Shown: in pieces, positions 28,311 to 38,309 of the stretch
Position numbering within the stretch: the first letter of the stretch is position 1
Layout: every line of letters begins with the position of its first letter
NCBI GenBank assembly: GCA_031270945.1
Contig: JAISWZ010000085.1
Span: 1-64,000 of the forward strand
Reading direction: 5' to 3'
Length of the DNA: 64,000 nucleotides
Origin: Clostridiales bacterium
GTDB taxonomy: Bacteria; Bacillota; Clostridia; Lachnospirales; WQUN01
Notes under the pieces: generated by a model
What the model was told of the DNA's origin: nothing
The model's database searches: none
The model's input: the letters and a program-made list of their open reading frames with translations, nothing else
Made by a program: the position numbers and the translations under genes

Positions 28311-28339
28311 GCTTTGGCGTCTATCGTTTGGCTTTCCCA

Positions 28340-29430
28340 AAGCCCCGCTATAATTTTAATATTGATTTTATATTTTGCAAGTACGCACTTTTTTGTGCTA
28401 TACTATCCAAAATGAAACCAAGCATTGCTTAAGTATATTGGCGTCCATCGCCTCTTTGGTGTCAATCGCTTTGCGCTTTCTCCAATCCTCATGTTGTGAT
28501 TATAATACTGATTTTTCATTTTGCAAGTACGCACTTTTTTGTGCTATACTATCCAAAATAAAACCATAGGATGGCTTAAGCGCTTTGGCATCCAGCGCCT
28601 ATTACGCTTTCTCCGTACCTATGCTATAATTATAATACTGATTTTTCATTCTGCAAGTACGCACTTTTTTGTGCTATACTATCCAAAATGAAACTAAGCA
28701 TGATTTAAGCGCTTCGGCGTCTAATGCTTCTTTGGTGTCCAGCGCCTCTTCGGCATCCAGCGCCTTGCGCTCTATCCAAACCTATACTATAATTATAATA
28801 CTGATTTTTCATTCTGCAAGTACGCACTTTTTTGTGCTATACTATCCAAAACGAAACCAAGTAAGGTTTAAGCGCCTCGGCATCCAGCGCCTATTGCGCC
28901 CTCTCCAAACCTATGCTATAATTATAATACTGATTTTTCTTTCTGCAAGTACGCACTTTTTTGTGCTATACTATCTAAAATGAAACTAAGCTTGATTAAG
29001 CGCTCCAGCGTCCAATGCCTCTTTGGCTTCCAGCGCCTCTTTGGTGTCCAGCGCCTATTGTGCTTTCTCCAAACCCACGCTATAATTATAATACTGATTT
29101 TTCTTTCTGCAAGTACGCACTTTTTTGTGCTATACTACCCAAAACGAAACTAAACATGATTTAAGCGCTCCGGCGTCCAATGCCTCTTTGGCGTCAAGCG
29201 CCTTACGCTTTTCCTAAACCCATGATATAATTATAATACTGATTTTTCTTTCTGCAAGTACGCACTTTTTTGTGATATACTACCTAAAACGAAACCATAG
29301 GACAGCTTAAGCGCTTTCGCCTTAATTGCCTCTTGCGCTCTCTTCAAATCCATGCTATAATTTTAATACCAATTTTTCATTCTGCAAGTACGCACTTTAT
29401 AGTGCAATAGTTTCTAAAGCGAAACCCAGT
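28340..29430 (+). repeat. eight tandem promoter/operator repeats upstream of hxlR
   Basis: Eight copies of a 129-164-bp unit run up to the HxlR gene. Each contains GCTATAATTATAATACTGATT (first 20 bases variable), then CTGCAA or TTGCAA, an 18-bp spacer, and TATACT. The spacer holds the imperfect dyad GTACGCAC-T6-GTGC. The -35/-10 cores are at 28375-28404, 28521-28550, 28651-28680, 28814-28843, 28943-28972, 29107-29136, 29252-29281 and 29382-29411. The last copy, nearest the gene, has the most diverged -10. Between cores lie 17-18-bp minisatellite units such as GCCTCTTTGGTGTCCAG, whose number explains the spacing steps. Confidence 0.9.
29382..29411 (+). promoter_or_regulatory. gene-proximal promoter/operator copy for hxlR
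   Basis: CTGCAA, an 18-bp spacer with GTACGCACTTTATAGTGC, and a weak AATAGT in place of TATACT. The dyad here is the most symmetric of the array (GCACTTTATAGTGC), so it may be the best operator and the weakest promoter. It lies 70 bp upstream of the HxlR start. Confidence 0.6.
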
Positions 29431-29481
29431 ACCCAAAATGATACCGTTAAAAAACGCCCATTTGCGAAGGGAGATGCAAGC

Positions 29482-31413: not shown

Positions 31414-31515
31414 GTGCATATCCCAAAATTCCGTAATGGCACCGGAAAAATCCTGGCGAATGCTTCAACGCCGGATTTTTCCGGTGCCTCGGATATAATT
31501 TTGGGATATGCACTT
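31414..31515. repeat. palindromic element, type B, copy 9
   Basis: TAGTGCATATCCCAAAATTC opens and AATTTTGGGATATGCACTTA closes. The core contains ACCGGAAAAATCC and GGATTTTTCCGGT as an inner inverted repeat. It lies in the leader of the aldo/keto reductase, downstream of its promoter. Confidence 0.85.
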
Positions 31516-31552
31516 AAACAATTGACTTGCAGCATGCAACATAGTACAATCT

Positions 31553-31583
31553 ATTATACGACTTGGAGTTGGCTCTAAGTCAA
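31553..31583 (-). promoter_or_regulatory. MerR-type promoter of the aldo/keto reductase gene
   Basis: On the minus strand TTGACT (31578-31583) and TATAAT (31553-31558) are separated by 19 bp, the stretched spacing typical of MerR-activated promoters. The spacer carries the dyad ACTTGGAG-TTGG-CTCTAAGT (31561-31580, as read on the + strand). This fits the AdhR/NmlR subgroup. Confidence 0.88.
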
Positions 31584-31642
31584 TAGGAACTTCATATAAA
31601 GGCGGATTTTTTAAGCTTTCGCCACGAGAGGCGGCATCGTTC

Positions 31643-32038
31643 ATGACTATAGCGCAAGCTTGCAAAACCCTCAATCTATCAGCGGACACTTTAAGGTACT
31701 ATGAAAAGGTAGGGCTTATCCCCAAAATCGGCAGAACGGAAAGCGGCTTGAGAGACTACACCAGCGCTGACTGCAATTGGATCGAGTTTATCAAGTGCAT
31801 GCGCAACGCAGGGGTTCAAGTTGAATCGCTGGTAGAGTACGTAAAGCTGTACCAGGAAGGCGACTCAACCCATGAGGCCCGGAAGGACATTCTTGTTCGG
31901 GAGCGTGATCGCATATCCGCGCAGGTTGAGGCGATGCAACAGACGCTCACCAGGCTCAACTTCAAGATCGAAAAGTACGAAACGAAAATGAAAAACGCAG
32001 AGCCCTTGCTGGGTGACTGCGCGAAGTGCTCTTCATAA
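31643..32038 (+). CDS. AdhR-like MerR-family regulator
   Basis: The 131-residue protein has the MerR helix-turn-helix (MTIAQACKTLNLSADTLRYY) and wing (GLIPKIGRTESGLRDY), then a coiled coil to the C-terminus. Cysteines are at 7, 44 and 52, and a CAKC motif ends the protein. A cysteine at position 52 is the conserved reactive residue in Bacillus AdhR, which senses formaldehyde and methylglyoxal. The gene is divergent from an aldo/keto reductase that has a 19-bp-spacer promoter with a fitting dyad. The ribosome binding site is GAGAGGCGG. A strong terminator follows. Confidence 0.9.
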   Translation: MTIAQACKTLNLSADTLRYYEKVGLIPKIGRTESGLRDYTSADCNWIEFIKCMRNAGVQVESLVEYVKLYQEGDSTHEARKDILVRERDRISAQVEAMQQTLTRLNFKIEKYETKMKNAEPLLGDCAKCSS

Positions 32039-32057
32039 GCTTTAAGAGCCATTGCTT

Positions 32058-32096
32058 GCGGCATGGATCCATTTGGGGATCTGTGCCGCTTTTTTT
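32058..32096 (+). terminator. intrinsic terminator after the AdhR-like gene
   Basis: GCGGCATGGATCC and GGATCTGTGCCGC form the stem around ATTTGG, followed by seven T. Confidence 0.9.
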
Positions 32097-32240
32097 ATCT
32101 TATATAAGCCTACGAGTATAAAGTTTAGGGTATCAGGGAACCGGCAGCACGTCTTGAATCGAAAGCGAGCCCAACTACCCTCTTGAGGTGAAGATACGGA
32201 GGCTCCTTTTGTACCGTGGCATTGGCACTTATTGCTCTTT

Positions 32241-32273
32241 GCGGTACGGGCTCGCTCTTTGAGCCCGTACCGC
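32241..32273 (+). repeat. array hairpin H0
   Basis: GCGGTACGGGCTC and GAGCCCGTACCGC pair perfectly around GCTCTTT. Compared with H1-H5 one stem pair has changed on both sides (T-A instead of C-G) and one is C-G where the others have T-G. It precedes the first promoter of the array. Confidence 0.8.
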
Positions 32274-32439
32274 TTTCTGCTTCACCTTTTCGATAAGCTC
32301 TAGCTTTCTGGTTCGCTGTGTTCAAATATCTCCGCGGTTGCTTTTATTAGTGTTTTCGTTCAAATATCTCCAGAAACGGCTAATGTTAATGTTTTCGTTC
32401 AACTACACTGCTTTCTCCCTTTTGCGGCTAAGGCTATTG

Positions 32440-32850
32440 TAAGAAAGGCCTCTTTGTGTTTTGTGAAATAATGTTACTTTTTGTCTTTCAAATCCTCATT
32501 TGCGAGCGCTCATCTCAAATCTCTGAATGCTTAACATTGCATTTATCATTTGCAACCTTCGCGAAATTTGCTATAAATACTAATTAACATTCGGAGCTTT
32601 TCACAAGTTTAGCCTTAGCCAGAAACCTTGCAAAACATGCGTTCGTTGTTCGTGAATCAATCCTAAACCACTTCATGTCGGTTTTGCGTCATCGAGTTTT
32701 ATGATAAAACTCTGTTTGAGCAACATAAAATTGCCTCACAATGAATGTTGGCTATCAACTCTGCGCATATGCTCGTAATTTTATAGCACATCTGTTCGCT
32801 CTTTAAATTCGCCTATGTTTTTTCTGTCTGGCGGAAGAGTCATGCGCGTT
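32440..32850 (+). ncRNA. array unit 1: promoter and conserved 5' block
   Basis: TTGCAA (32550-32555), 16-bp spacer, TATAAA (32572-32577), then TAATTAACATTCGGAG and about 250 bases shared with the other units, including AAAACTCTGTTTGAGCAAC. The next terminator-like hairpin is at 33001-33032, giving a possible RNA of about 0.45 kb. The RNA call is inference. Confidence 0.5.
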
Positions 32851-33000
32851 CATAAATGGTCGTTTGGCTCTCTCACAGCAGTACTACGCTTCCTATTCCT
32901 CGCTTAGTTTCCCTGGCGCCGCTATCCTTTAGCCGCTTTCAACCCGCCTTAGCCACGCTTGGAGGTACCCTCTGTCCCAATTCATCTGATTCCTCCCTTT

Positions 33001-33032
33001 GCGGTATGGGCCCGCTCTTTGGGCCCGTACGC
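33001..33032 (+). repeat. array hairpin H1
   Basis: GCGGTATGGGCCC and GGGCCCGTAC(C)GC; one C is missing in the right arm compared with H2, H4 and H5. It would end unit 1. Confidence 0.7.
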
Positions 33033-33119
33033 TTATTGCCTCGCTTTCTCGGTATCGTGCGCTTCTCGATAGCAATGTGCAACGCATACAAGTTCTTTCT
33101 TCAACCTTATTTCTCGTCT

Positions 33120-33560
33120 CAATAACGTCGCTTTGTCCCTTCGATGCAAGGGGTATTTTAAAAAATCTCCTTTGGTTTTTGTTAGATTTTATTGCTTTTT
33201 GTCTTTTGATTCATCTTCTTCTCGTGCTCACCTAAAATCTCTGAATGCTTAACATTGTAGTAATTTTCTGCAACCTTCTAGATATTTGTTATAATTACTA
33301 ATTAACATTCGGAGTATTTCACAAGTTTCACATTAGCCAGAAACCTTGAAAAACATGCGTTCGCAGTTCTTGAATCAATCCTGTTCGACTCAATATCGTT
33401 TTTGAATCATAGATTTTAAGTGGCAAAACTCTGTTTGAGCAACATACAATACGTATATAATGAATGTTGGCTACAAACTCGATGCATATCCTCGCAATTT
33501 TACAGCATATCTGTTCGCGCTTTTAATCAGCCTATGTTGGCGGAAGAGCCAGGCGCGTTC
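33120..33560 (+). ncRNA. array unit 2: promoter and conserved 5' block
   Basis: CTGCAA (33268-33273), 16-bp spacer, TATAAT (33290-33295), followed by CTAATTAACATTCGGAGTAT and the shared block. A unique C/T-rich body runs to the hairpin at 34609-34641, about 1.35 kb in all. Inferred noncoding RNA. Confidence 0.5.
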
Positions 33561-34608
33561 ACAAGCGGTCGTTTGGCTAACTTCTGCCTCTGCATTTCCT
33601 TCCCGTTTTCTAAGCGCTAATCCAGGACTTTCTCGTACCTTCCCTCTTCGATGAGTCCGTTCTTAGGGTTCGTACCGCTTATGTACTCCCCTCTTTCTCT
33701 CTAACTATTGAAAGCGGCTTGTCTATCCTCTCGTCTAGCGCTTCCCTATTCCACTGTATCCTAGCTCGTTCTCGCTCGTCTTGCTATGGCTTACCGCGCT
33801 CTCTATCCAAACGCGTCTGAATCCGCCTATTCGGTACAGGCTCTTGGTTTGCCAAAAAGCAACATCCCCGTGGAAGCCAAAAACCGCTTATGGGCACCTT
33901 TCTCGGTTCATCATCACCACAGGAACGTTTCTTTATTCCACCATGGAATTTAGCGCCATTTGCTTGTTGGCCCCTTATTGGTGCTTGCCCCTATTGGATT
34001 GGCAAAGCAATCTTTGTACCGCTTCAAAGCGAATGTCTTGAGTGGAAACCTAAAATCCAAACATAGCTTTCGACTTGGCTTGGCCAAAAATAATAAGCCA
34101 TTCGCCGCAAAACTGCGTTCACCTTTGGCTAACGTTCAGAGTGCTTTCAAAAAAGGCGGCGGGAGTGGTTAGTCCCAATCGGCTTTCCTGCCCTGCTCTG
34201 AGTCACGCCTAAAAAAGTTGCCATGAGCGTCATCCGAAAAATCCGTGAGCCTATTTCGCGCTTCGGGATGGCGGTGAGCCCATCGTACTGCTACTCGATT
34301 TCTTGGGCAAGAAAACATCCGACAATTCAAAGCCTTGCGCATCGCGCTCCGTCAAAAGTAGCTCTCGATTTTAATCTCAGTAAGCTTAACATTTCATGTA
34401 ATCAATACGGGCCCTCTCTTTAAGCCTGTGCTGCTTATCCCCGCTCTCTCCAACCGCCTGAAAACCGCTTGCCTATCTCTCACACAGCAGTACTACGCTT
34501 CCTATTCCTCGCTTAGCTTCCCTGGCGCCGCTATCCTTTAGCGGCTTTCAACCCGCCTTAGCCACGCTTGGAGGTACCCTCTGTCCCAATGCATTTGATT
34601 CCTCCCTT

Positions 34609-34641
34609 GCGGTATGGGCCCGCTCTTTGGGCCCGTACCGC
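34609..34641 (+). repeat. array hairpin H2
   Basis: GCGGTATGGGCCC and GGGCCCGTACCGC around GCTCTTT, followed by TTTTTG, as an intrinsic terminator would be. Confidence 0.75.
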
Positions 34642-34734
34642 TTTTTGCCTCGCTTTCTCGGTATCTATGCTCTTCTCGATAGCAATGTGCAACACGCACA
34701 AGTTCTTTCTTCAACCTTATTTCGCATCTCAATA

Positions 34735-35190
34735 ACGTCGCTTTGCCCTTCGATGCAAGGGGTCTTTTAAAAAAACTCCTTTGGTTTTTGTTAAATTGTA
34801 TTGCTTTTTGTCTCTTGATTCATCTTCTTCTCGTGCTCACCTAAAATCTCTGAATGCTTAACATTGTAGTAATTATCTGCAACATTCTAAAAATTCGCTA
34901 TAATCACTAATTAACATTCGGAGTATTTCACAAGTTTCACATTAGCCAGAAACCTTGCAAAACATGCGTTCGCAGTTCGGGAATCAATCCTACTCGACTC
35001 AATGTCATTTTTGAATCATCGATTTTAAGTGGCAAAACTCTGTTTGAGCAACATACAATTCTCTAACAATGAATGTTGGCTACAAACTCTGTGCATATCC
35101 TCGCAATTACACAGCACATCTGTTCGCGCTTTAAATTCGCCTATGTTTTTTCTGCCTGTAGGAAGAGCCATGCCAGCAACCAGCGGTCGT
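34735..35190 (+). ncRNA. array unit 3: promoter and conserved 5' block
   Basis: CTGCAA (34877-34882), 16-bp spacer, TATAAT (34899-34904), then the shared block. The next strong hairpin is at 35621-35653, about 0.75 kb downstream. A weaker hairpin-like copy is near 35447-35475. Confidence 0.5.
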
Positions 35191-35620
35191 TGGCTAACTT
35201 CTCGTCCACCCCTTCCCTACCCCACTGTCTCCTAGCCCGCTTTCGCTCGTCTTAGCTATAGCTTACGGCGCTCCCTATCCCAATGCATCTGAATCCGCAT
35301 TTTCGGTACAGGCTCGTCTAGCCCTCCCCCTGCGATATCGTTTCCCAGCCCTTAGCCAAGGCTCAATGAGGATCTGTCTCTGTAAATCCGATCTCTCATA
35401 TTCCTGTTAGCTACGCTCTTGAAATCCGCCTCCCTACTTCTGCACAGCATGGGCCCTCTCTTTAAGCCTGTACTGCTTCCCCATTCTCTCCAGCCGTCTA
35501 AAAACTGCTTGCCTATTCCTCGCTTAGCTTCCCTGGCACCAGTATCTTTCACCCGTTTTCAACCCGCCTTAGCCACGCTTGGAATTAATCACTGTTCCAA
35601 TGCATCTGATTCCTCCCTTA

Positions 35621-35653
35621 GCGGTATGGGCCCGTTCTTTGGGCCCGTACCGC
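35621..35653 (+). repeat. array hairpin H4
   Basis: GCGGTATGGGCCC and GGGCCCGTACCGC around GTTCTTT, followed by TTTTTG. Confidence 0.75.
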
Positions 35654-35749
35654 TTTTTGCCTCGCTTTCTCGGTATCTGTGCGCTTCTCGATAGCAATGT
35701 GCAACACGTGCAAGTTCATACTTCAACTTTATTTCGCATCTCAATAACA

Positions 35750-36175
35750 CTGCTTTGCCCCTTCGAAGCAAAGGGTATTTTGAAAAAGCTCCTTTGGTTT
35801 TTGTTAAATTGTATTGCTTTTTGTCTCTTGATTCATCTTCTTCCCATCCTCACCTAAAATCTCTGAATGCTTAACATTGTAGTAATTGTCTGCAACCATC
35901 TAGATATTTGTTATAATTACTAATTAACATTCGGAGTATTTCACAAGTTTCATATTAGCCAGAAACCTTGCAAAACATGCGTTCGCAGTTCATGAATCAA
36001 TCCTACTCGACTCAATGTCGTTTTACAGTCATCGATTTTAAGTGGCAAAACTCTGTTTGCGCAACATACAATACCGATGCTAAGCGATTTCAGCCTCAAC
36101 TCTTGCACTTGTTTCGTATTTCAACAGCACATCTGTTCGCATTTTAAATTCGCCTATGTTTTTTCTGTCTGGCGT
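35750..36175 (+). ncRNA. array unit 4: promoter and conserved 5' block
   Basis: CTGCAA (35890-35895), 16-bp spacer, TATAAT (35912-35917), then the shared block. The body contains three degenerate hairpin copies (near 36290, 36420 and 36600) and ends at the strong hairpin at 36772-36804. Confidence 0.5.
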
Positions 36176-36771
36176 CAGTCCTTTGACAATCGCTCCCTGC
36201 CCCACTATCGCTTCTCAGCCTATTCTCAGTCCGTTTAGCCATGACCTTAGCAATTCCCTATCGCTTTGCATTTGCAGCCTCCCCTTGGGGCCGTAGCGTT
36301 TATAGCTACTCTATCTCCAGCTGCTTGCCTTGCCCTCCCCTATCCCGCCATCGCTTCCAATCTCCTACTCGCTTTAGCCATGTTTTGCGATGCCCTCTAC
36401 CCAAACGCGCTTGAGTCTTCCCTTGAGGCATGAGCTCTCCCTTTAGGCCCGTACCGCTTATATTCTCTTTCTCTTGCCTTGCCCTCCCCTCCCCTGCATT
36501 TGATATCGCCTTCATGCTGCCGCTTAGCCCGCATCAGCTCGTCTTGGCTTAGGCTTGAGGCAATCCCCTATCCCAATGCATGTGAACTCTCTTAAGCGCT
36601 ACGGGCACTCTCTTTAAGCCCTGTACTGCTTATACCCTCTCCAGTTGCTTGAAAACCGCTGACTTGCCTCTCATGCAATCCTCCCCTGCCCTGCTATCAT
36701 TTAGCTCGCCATCAACCAGTCTAGCCACGCTTGCGGCAACCTCTGTCCCTATGCATCTGAATCCTCCATTT

Positions 36772-36804
36772 GCGGTATGGGCCCGCTCTTTGGGCCCGTA
36801 CCGC
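36772..36804 (+). repeat. array hairpin H5
   Basis: GCGGTATGGGCCC and GGGCCCGTACCGC around GCTCTTT, followed by TTTTTA. Confidence 0.75.
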
Positions 36805-36889
36805 TTTTTACCTGACTTTTCAGGTATCCGCTTGTTTCTCAATAGCCATGTGCAACCCTCATAAGTTCTTTCTTTTGACCTATTTCGTG

Positions 36890-37260
36890 TCTCAATAACG
36901 TCACTTTGCCTCTTCGATGCAAGTGGTCTTTTATAAAAGCTCCTTTAGTTTTTGTTAAATTGTATTGCTTTTTGTCTCTTGACTTCACTTCTTCCCGCGC
37001 TCATAAAAATCTCTGAGTGCTTAACATTATATTAATTATCCGCAACTATTGCAAAACTTGTCGCATTCACGAATTAACATTCAGAGTTTTCGCAAGCCTC
37101 GCCCCAGCCAAAAATCCCGAAAACAAGCGTTCGCAATTCTTGCCAAATGAAAATTCTCGCCCAATGCCATTTTTGCCTAATCAAATTAAGTGGTAAAACT
37201 CTGCCTGAGCAACATGCAACACCTTAACAACGCGCTTAAGGCTCCTGTTCGCGCTTTTAA
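36890..37260 (+). ncRNA. array unit 5, the most diverged copy
   Basis: CCGCAA (37040-37045), 16-bp spacer and CGCATT (37062-37067) occupy the promoter positions, but the -10 is degraded, so this copy may be silent. The shared block continues with GAATTAACATTCAGAG and AAAACTCTGCCTGAGCAAC. It runs into the duplicated promoter region of the methyltransferase. Confidence 0.4.
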
Positions 37261-37610
37261 AATCCGCAAAGCGTTATTCTTCTTTTTTGGCTTTATTCCA
37301 GTGAGGAAAAGAACTGAGCTTTTAGGGACGGTCGCTAGCCAGCCCCCAGCGCCTCAAAAGTTGAGCAATCCAAGAAACATAGCTATAACGCTCTTCTCTT
37401 TAATGCCATAAGCTCCCTAGGAGCCTCGCCGGAAAAATATCTGTCGCGCTTTAAGTTCGCCAAGCGATATTCCTCTTTTCTCGCCTTATGACAGTGAGGA
37501 AAAGAACTGAGCTTTTCACTCAAGAGCCAGTTGTTCGGTTGCCAGCCCCCAGCGCCTCAAAAGTTGAACAATCCAAGAAACGATGCTATAATGCTCTCAT
37601 CTTTGATGAC
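37245..37610 (+). repeat. ~195-bp direct duplication of the methyltransferase promoter region
   Basis: GTGAGGAAAAGAACTGAGCT occurs at 37301 and 37494. CCAGCCCCCAGCGCCTCAAA and the promoter that follows are also in both copies. The right copy has TTGAAC-17-TATAAT; the left has TTGAGC-17-TATAAC. Confidence 0.85.
37567..37595 (+). promoter_or_regulatory. promoter of the methyltransferase gene
   Basis: TTGAAC and TATAAT are separated by 17 bp about 45 bp upstream of the start codon. This is a good match to the housekeeping sigma factor consensus. Confidence 0.8.
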
Positions 37611-37634
37611 TGCATGTTCTTAAGGAGGCCCGCC

Positions 37635-38309
37635 ATGAAAAATGGAACCGACAAGAACGTGGTTGAGCAGTTCAACCGCATAGCAAACCTTCCTGACTTA
37701 TGGGATTTCAACCAGCACTATCAGAAGTCGCTGTTGAAGCTGATTCCAAACGGGTGCCGCTCCATACTGGATGTTGGATGCGGGACTGGCGAGCTGACAA
37801 AGAAGCTGGCCCCTTTCGCCTCTGAGGTGATAGGGCTGGACGTAGCTGAGAACATGATCTCTGAAGCAAAGAAGAGAAACAGCGCTGACGGGATAACATA
37901 CCTGCTTGAGCCTGTCGAGAAATACCTTGAGGAAACCGGCAAAGAGTTTGACTGCATCATCTCTATAGCGGCGCTTCACCACATGGATGAAGAGCGCGTT
38001 CTTTCCTTGATGAAGAAGAGGCTTGCGCCTGGCGGGCAGATACTGGCGCTTGATCTTGTTGACGACAAAACCCTGCCCGGGCTCATTGTAACTTTAGGCG
38101 CTGCGGTTCTAACCCCGTTCATGTTCTTGGCCCACAGTGGGAAGATGTCAAAGAGCCCTCAGGAAAAGGAAGCATGGAACGAGCATGCCAAATACGACAC
38201 TTACCTCACGGTTGGAAAAGCGAAGGCAATCGCGCGGCGGGCGCTGGGGAAGGCGCAAGTGAAGCGTCTTATGTTTTTCAGGTATATGCTGGCTTACAAG
38301 CGCGACTGA
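37635..38309 (+). CDS. class I SAM-dependent methyltransferase
   Basis: The 224-residue protein has motif I SILDVGCGTGELTKKL (about 43-58), VIGLDVAENMISEAKK as motif post-I, FDCIISIAALHHM as motif II/post-II and MKKRLAPGGQILALD as motif III. This is the UbiE/Methyltransf_11 layout for a small-molecule methyltransferase. The substrate cannot be told. Start at ATG 37635 with AAGGAGG upstream; the frame is open further upstream but this is unlikely to be used. The promoter region is duplicated. The gene stands alone, bounded by the repeat array and two tRNA genes. Confidence 0.88.
   Translation: MKNGTDKNVVEQFNRIANLPDLWDFNQHYQKSLLKLIPNGCRSILDVGCGTGELTKKLAPFASEVIGLDVAENMISEAKKRNSADGITYLLEPVEKYLEETGKEFDCIISIAALHHMDEERVLSLMKKRLAPGGQILALDLVDDKTLPGLIVTLGAAVLTPFMFLAHSGKMSKSPQEKEAWNEHAKYDTYLTVGKAKAIARRALGKAQVKRLMFFRYMLAYKRD

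Follow-up and report, generated by a model that had tools for sequence, protein, structure and literature searches.

A tandem array of promoter-led noncoding units in a Clostridiales genome, possibly a species-specific cluster of multicopy RNA genes

The 64,000-nucleotide stretch analysed here (positions 1 to 64,000 of contig JAISWZ010000085.1, assembly GCA_031270945.1; hereafter the window) comes from a Clostridiales bacterium, and ~5.5 kb of it, from the end of a MerR-type gene (31643-32038) to the start of a methyltransferase gene (37635), is taken up by five diverged tandem units, U1-U5. We consider it about an even chance that these units are a species-specific cluster of multicopy noncoding RNA genes, where transcription, co-regulation, and antisense action are all inferred. 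A unit consists of a leader of ~300 nt followed by a body with 67-70% pyrimidines, which is built from diverged modules (each very roughly 175 nt). Overall, likeness between copies was ~70-93% across 300-700 nt. U2-U4 were the closest copies (~84-93% alike); U1 and U5 were ~70-82% and ~62-79% alike, respectively, when compared with the other units. A first-pass annotation of the window had proposed five diverged tandem copies without a protein gene at this place, and this was borne out by our alignments and by open reading frame (ORF), Pfam, and codon-phase tests.

All five hexamer pairs reported in that annotation were recovered, with 16-bp spacers and with -10 elements ending at 32577, 33295, 34904, 35917, and 37067. 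The -10 had been judged good in four of the five units, and we also observed that it is kept in U1-U4 and lost in U5, which has no credible -10 and no terminator of its own. The sequence ATTAACATTC[G/A]GAG follows each of the five promoters, and an any-base version of it occurs only once elsewhere in the 8.8-Mb genome. A further conserved element, box A, lies ~33 bp upstream of the -10 within the array units. The RNA lengths predicted for U1-U4 (~0.46, 1.35, 0.75, and 0.89 kb) agree with the earlier estimates; U2 is long because it contains a ~0.56-kb segment of differing composition (~33846-34405), which closes with a copy of a dispersed box A element (34344-34405). The features of the array, all on the + strand except where marked, are as follows.

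32058-32089: terminator of the MerR-type gene, the 5' border of the array
32241-32273: T0, a terminator hairpin of the array type and the first of these (14 bp, -27.6 kcal/mol); it belongs to no unit
32519-32538: box A of U1, ATCTCTGAATGCTTAACATT
32550-32577: U1 promoter, TTGCAA-16-TATAAA, with TG ahead of the -10
32583-33032: putative U1 transcribed region, ending at the weaker terminator 33001-33032
33237-33256: box A of U2
33268-33295: U2 promoter, CTGCAA-16-TATAAT, with TG ahead of the -10
33301-34641: putative U2 transcribed region, ending at terminator 34609-34641
~33846-34405 (no strand assigned): inner segment of U2 with differing composition
34846-34865: box A of U3
34877-34904: U3 promoter, CTGCAA-16-TATAAT
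34910-35654: putative U3 transcribed region, ending at terminator 35620-35654
34957-34972: box C, a conserved leader island (U3 coordinates)
35028-35055: box D, another conserved island of the leader, with partial complementarity to the start-site box (U3 coordinates)
35859-35878: box A of U4
35890-35917: U4 promoter, CTGCAA-16-TATAAT, with TG ahead of the -10
35923-36804: putative U4 transcribed region, ending at terminator 36772-36804
37009-37028: box A of U5, with one change
37040-37067: decayed U5 promoter, CCGCAA-16-CGCATT
37073-37634: U5 leader, continuing into the methyltransferase 5' region and holding a duplicated promoter segment of ~200 bp

The evidence that carries this reading is the pattern of change between copies. 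Among U1-U4, box A had 0.04 changes per column, the -35 and the start-site box 0.00, the -10 0.17, and boxes C and D 0.06 and 0.14, and the changes reached 0.62 in the spacer, 0.42 in the mid-leader, 0.89 past the leader, and 0.46 in the upstream DNA. Variable columns made up 2 of 52 in box A, the hexamers, and the start-site box versus 123 of 325 elsewhere (Fisher 6e-8), and with U2-U4 only, 0 of 52 versus 68 of 325 (Fisher 1.4e-5); these p-values are indicative only, as the tests take columns as independent and ignore the relatedness of the copies, and the boxes were drawn after the alignment had been viewed. A column-shuffle test on the most conserved stretch gave p values of 0.001-0.006 for windows of 18-25 nt. 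With U5 added, the hexamers ceased to stand out (6 of 12 columns variable versus 16 of 26), as expected if the U5 promoter has decayed. Box A, among the two most constrained stretches of the units, has independent support in that its 20-mer is found again throughout the genome.

The GC-rich hairpins followed by T residues that had been noted at the unit ends are clear at 34609, 35620, and 36772, and the one at 33001 is weaker. T0 (32241), T2 (34609), T3 (35620), and T4 (36772) are hairpins of 14-15 bp with predicted energies of -27.6 to -30.3 kcal/mol and T-rich tails. T1 (33001-33032), at the end of U1, has -20.8 kcal/mol and a poor T-tract. Five internal relatives of the terminator module within the bodies are decayed (-5.6 to -11.1 kcal/mol), and 3 of 9 consensus pairs of the terminator stem have double changes that preserve pairing (for example, GGGCTCG..GAGCCC in T0 versus GGGCCCG..GGGCCC in the other terminators). 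These data suggest that each unit end kept one terminator. Kept promoter elements together with one kept terminator per unit are what is expected of functioning, separately transcribed noncoding units, and the retention of both in U1-U4 while the DNA between them drifted probably marks real multicopy regulatory RNA genes.

We found nothing to indicate that the array encodes protein. Array ORFs tested against Pfam gave no match above the cut-off, the leaders have stop codons in every frame, and the codon phase of leader substitutions carries no signal (10/11/9). With these results, and with tblastn of both neighbouring proteins against the array also finding nothing, an array of hidden peptides was rejected and one of degraded protein genes was not supported. 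The suggestion that no known RNA family has this form holds as far as Rfam is concerned: at the gathering threshold the whole window contains two tRNA-Lys only, and at E<=1 there was no match in 32000-37640. What stands of the initial proposal is noncoding units that begin at a promoter and end at a terminator, with the promoter parts conserved like a footprint. A conserved structured RNA family did not hold up except for the terminator hairpin, to which covariation is confined; fold z-scores are near 0 in most units and leader covariation is nearly absent (1 of 30 pairs with a double change). The start-site box is complementary to box D (duplex -13.1 in U2-U4; shuffle p 0.002-0.012). We did not accept this pairing as RNA structure, because it is poorly kept in U1 and is explicable as a repeated DNA motif.

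If the units are RNA genes, a plausible history is that unequal recombination multiplied a unit in which box A and a promoter precede a leader of ~300 nt, and a pyrimidine-rich body then closes with an intrinsic terminator. U1-U4 would each probably be transcribed on the + strand from a start ~7 nt past the -10 and stop at their own hairpin, although the U1 terminator may leak; U5 would have decayed and now be the upstream part of the methyltransferase leader. A motif like AAAnCTCTGAATG can be read in the sequence three times per unit, in box A, inverted at the start site, and more weakly in box D. Box A and the start-site box could be inverted sites for one DNA-binding regulator, by which the copies would be switched together. 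For the RNAs themselves, base-pairing to G-rich ribosome-binding sites seems the likeliest action because the bodies are pyrimidine-rich (~68% C+U) and mostly unpaired and have repeated UCCC, and copy number would then add strength. In predicted folds, TCCC sites are 0.69-0.89 unpaired compared with 0.49-0.59 for the body overall.

The closest working analogue of the array is the multicopy LhrC small RNAs of Listeria monocytogenes. LhrC1-4 are clustered between cysK and sul; all of LhrC1-5 are dependent on LisRK, and their repeated UCCC motifs pair with targets in a way that appears additive over copies (PMC4132741, PMC8079631). Like LhrC1-5, the array consists of sibling noncoding units in which sequence features point to a promoter and a terminator for each, except for U5 and the weak U1 terminator. 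Four of the five LhrC genes lie in one intergenic region and have promoters with a common regulator-responsive upstream element, and the array units likewise share box A. Membership in the LhrC family was rejected because there is no Rfam relationship and the lengths of 0.46-1.35 kb do not fit 105-121 nt.

Box A is not limited to the array. Allowing at most two mismatches, its pattern ATCTCTGNATGCTTAACATT has 69 sites in this genome and none in 37 other genomes of the family; a reversed control pattern has none. The dispersed form has a core of ~55 bp, CCCGCCAAAAGCAGCGCTCGATTTTAATCTCTGTATGCTTAACATTCTATGTTAT, with flanks that are otherwise unrelated, and is mostly intergenic. These dispersed copies have no TATAAT promoter, are often 3' of a same-strand gene and its terminator, and have no steady link to a downstream promoter. 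Several are followed by tandem hairpin modules of 125-450 bp with CCGCACCGCTT, which is near the GCCCGTACCGCTT arm of the array terminators. Only the box A core of ~20-33 nt is common to the array units and the dispersed elements, and neither leader nor body has a significant long match elsewhere in the genome. At one such locus (L117:4900-7300), a dispersed box A is followed by about nine noncoding modules of 150 bp with CTGGAAG..CTTCCAG hairpins and then by modules of a second kind of 125 bp.

The array must be judged against its genome. The draft genome is 8.8 Mb; that of the sole sister species compared is 7.7 Mb, and the other genomes of the family have 1.7-3.7 Mb. No 16S gene is present in the bin, and its Pta reaches at most 74% identity, to Clostridia-type MAGs. 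ORFs of at least 150 codons cover 76% of the sample from this genome, 67% in the sister, and 86-91% in four other family members. Tandem arrays with a period of at least 90 bp occur at 28 per Mb compared with 4-6 in the sister and family samples, although this and the other genome-wide repeat rates come from a 744-kb sample in which part of the contigs were picked for box A matches, so that they may be somewhat high. One 11-mer was present in 85 of 286 sampled intergenic stretches, the count that also stands for a very abundant MITE-like repeat with TTGGGATATGC ends (for example, at window positions 31500 and 59100). Noncoding repeat growth is a habit of this genome.

Searches for the array in the sister and family genomes and in 391 other genomes of the order gave matches of 21-40 nt only, which is about chance level. 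A 19-mer of box A was absent from GTDB r220 contigs and viral contigs, a set that may leave out this genome and very near ones. Among viral sequences, 58 matches of a 15-mer are about the chance number, and a 21-mer match sits within a phage gene. The array is so far known from this species only. Of the flanking genes, the methyltransferase had no homologue reaching E<=1e-10 in the sister genome or in five others of the family, and the MerR-type gene had homologues in two of these genomes at 31-57% identity.

Several results weigh against the interpretation as RNA genes. Conservation is seen between copies of one genome only, and gene conversion could contribute to it. The array was found in no relative searched, and it sits in a genome full of noncoding repeats. 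The -35 sequence CTGCAA is a 3/6 match to the sigma-70 consensus, because of which a consensus scan misses the array promoters, and with 12 promoter-like sites in the region versus 7.9 expected that scan found no clear excess; the promoter case rests on conservation between copies and not on a match to consensus. The predicted stability of the leaders does not exceed that of shuffled sequence (z -1.7 to +0.2 over a 145-nt domain). As for antisense action, TCCC occurs 31 times in the bodies versus 21.6 (sd 3.6) in shuffles, but the tandem modules inflate that count. Other 4-mers of pyrimidines alone come close to TCCC in being unpaired (0.70-0.82), and the anti-Shine-Dalgarno sequence CCTCC is not enriched in the bodies (10 versus 9.7 expected). 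Finally, whereas LhrC RNAs have 105-121 nt and two stem-loops, the array RNAs are predicted to be 0.46-1.35 kb long, to start with a leader of ~300 nt, and to repeat C/U-rich modules.

The serious rival, which we regard as possible if somewhat doubtful, is that an ordinary intergenic region was duplicated in tandem in a largely neutral way. A co-directional gene pair is expected to have a terminator and then a promoter, so tandem copies of the DNA between would mimic terminated, promoter-led RNAs, and the order of terminator, box A, promoter, leader, and methyltransferase fits this, with U5 merging with the 5' region of the gene. The high density of tandem arrays (28 per Mb versus 4-6), the low ORF cover, and the very abundant interspersed repeats also speak for it. 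What it does not readily account for is that promoter parts are kept at the resolution of single elements beside a drifting spacer, and that the hairpins at the unit ends remain intact, with compensatory changes, when the internal ones have decayed. The array might instead be a DNA decoy or operator array, in which the repeated sites (box A, the inverse start-site box, and box D) serve to titrate a regulator or to load it cooperatively, any RNAs being by-products. The three AAAnCTCTGAATG-like motifs per unit, the 69 copies of box A in mostly intergenic DNA, and the eight-copy operator-promoter array upstream of the nearby hxlR are consistent with this idea, but terminators are needless for a decoy and yet were kept, and the dispersed copies are not steadily associated with the promoters of genes downstream. 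We consider a decoy improbable.

We think it very improbable that the array grew locally from a non-autonomous repeat of a mobile or BOX-like kind (box A with a number of hairpin modules) that has copies dispersed genome-wide. BOX elements consist of a fixed box and then a variable number of modules. The dispersed loci of this genome with box A and hairpin modules resemble the BOX elements of Streptococcus pneumoniae, which are species-restricted intergenic repeats (PMC3049150); the array units differ from them in being tandem, with a conserved promoter and terminator, and no relation in sequence was seen between the two, none having been searched for. A mobile repeat would explain why a box A core is common to 69 sites, why several of these continue into tandem CCGCACCGCTT and hairpin modules resembling GCCCGTACCGCTT, and why one dispersed copy lies inside U2. 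Against this, array units and dispersed elements have nothing detectable in common beyond the core of ~20-33 nt, whole units were not found at unlinked sites, and the dispersed copies are without a TATAAT promoter. Neither terminal repeats nor target-site duplications were noticed in the repeat output for the array, and a link to a transposase was rejected, as a search for Y1-type transposases in the genome showed just one, split, locus. With box A dispersed genome-wide and tandem noncoding arrays common here, a mobile-element or neutral-repeat origin of the array retains some probability.

If transcribed, the units would form a cluster of multicopy RNAs that are unusually long and belong to no described family. 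The copies also supply, with no relative's genome needed, a natural footprint of promoter and terminator. An 8.8-Mb genome of low ORF cover may form new noncoding transcription units through repeat amplification, a process rarely caught underway. A bolder idea, to which we give little credence, is that of a lineage-specific, tandemly amplified family of long C/U-rich regulatory RNAs whose box A regulator site has spread to 69 intergenic places, with RNA copy number and site copy number co-evolving as a new kind of regulon.

Control of the array by the neighbouring MerR-type protein was considered and rejected: the likely dyad would serve a reductase gene, and the -35/-10 spacer is the least conserved promoter part of the array. 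That dyad, GACTTAGAGCCAACTCCAAGTC, lies in a likely MerR-type promoter on the - strand (31545-31590, TTGACT-19-TATAAT, as read from the sequence) for a divergent aldo/keto reductase. On the other side of the array, the promoter region of the methyltransferase is itself a tandem duplication of ~200 bp (37252-37405 and 37445-37608), each copy of which has a TATAA[T/C] -10, and the last promoter on this side, TTGAAC-17-TATAAT, ends at 37592.

The array upstream of the HxlR-type gene, at 28330-29470, has eight diverged operator-promoter copies (GCTATAATTATAATAC ... CTGCAAGTACGCACTTTTTTGTGCTATACTATCC; an AGTA-n-CAC / GTG-n-TACT dyad) and directly precedes that gene. It resembles U1-U5 in having tandem promoter units with CTGCAA before the -10, a strongly conserved core, and drifting linkers. 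By contrast with U1-U5, no terminators were seen between its copies, it points straight at a protein gene, and its dyad is HxlR-like. Other arrays were also observed. Tandem short genes resembling precursors of ribosomally synthesized and post-translationally modified peptides, with ribosome-binding sites and Gly/Tyr- and Cys-rich tails, are on the - strand at L119:18200-19820 and L120:800-3500. At L125:1-4271 a 334-bp sequence that has no long ORF is repeated in tandem about a dozen times, and repeats of ~320 bp at L163 and L126 seem to share GAAATGGCG..AAGGGAT.

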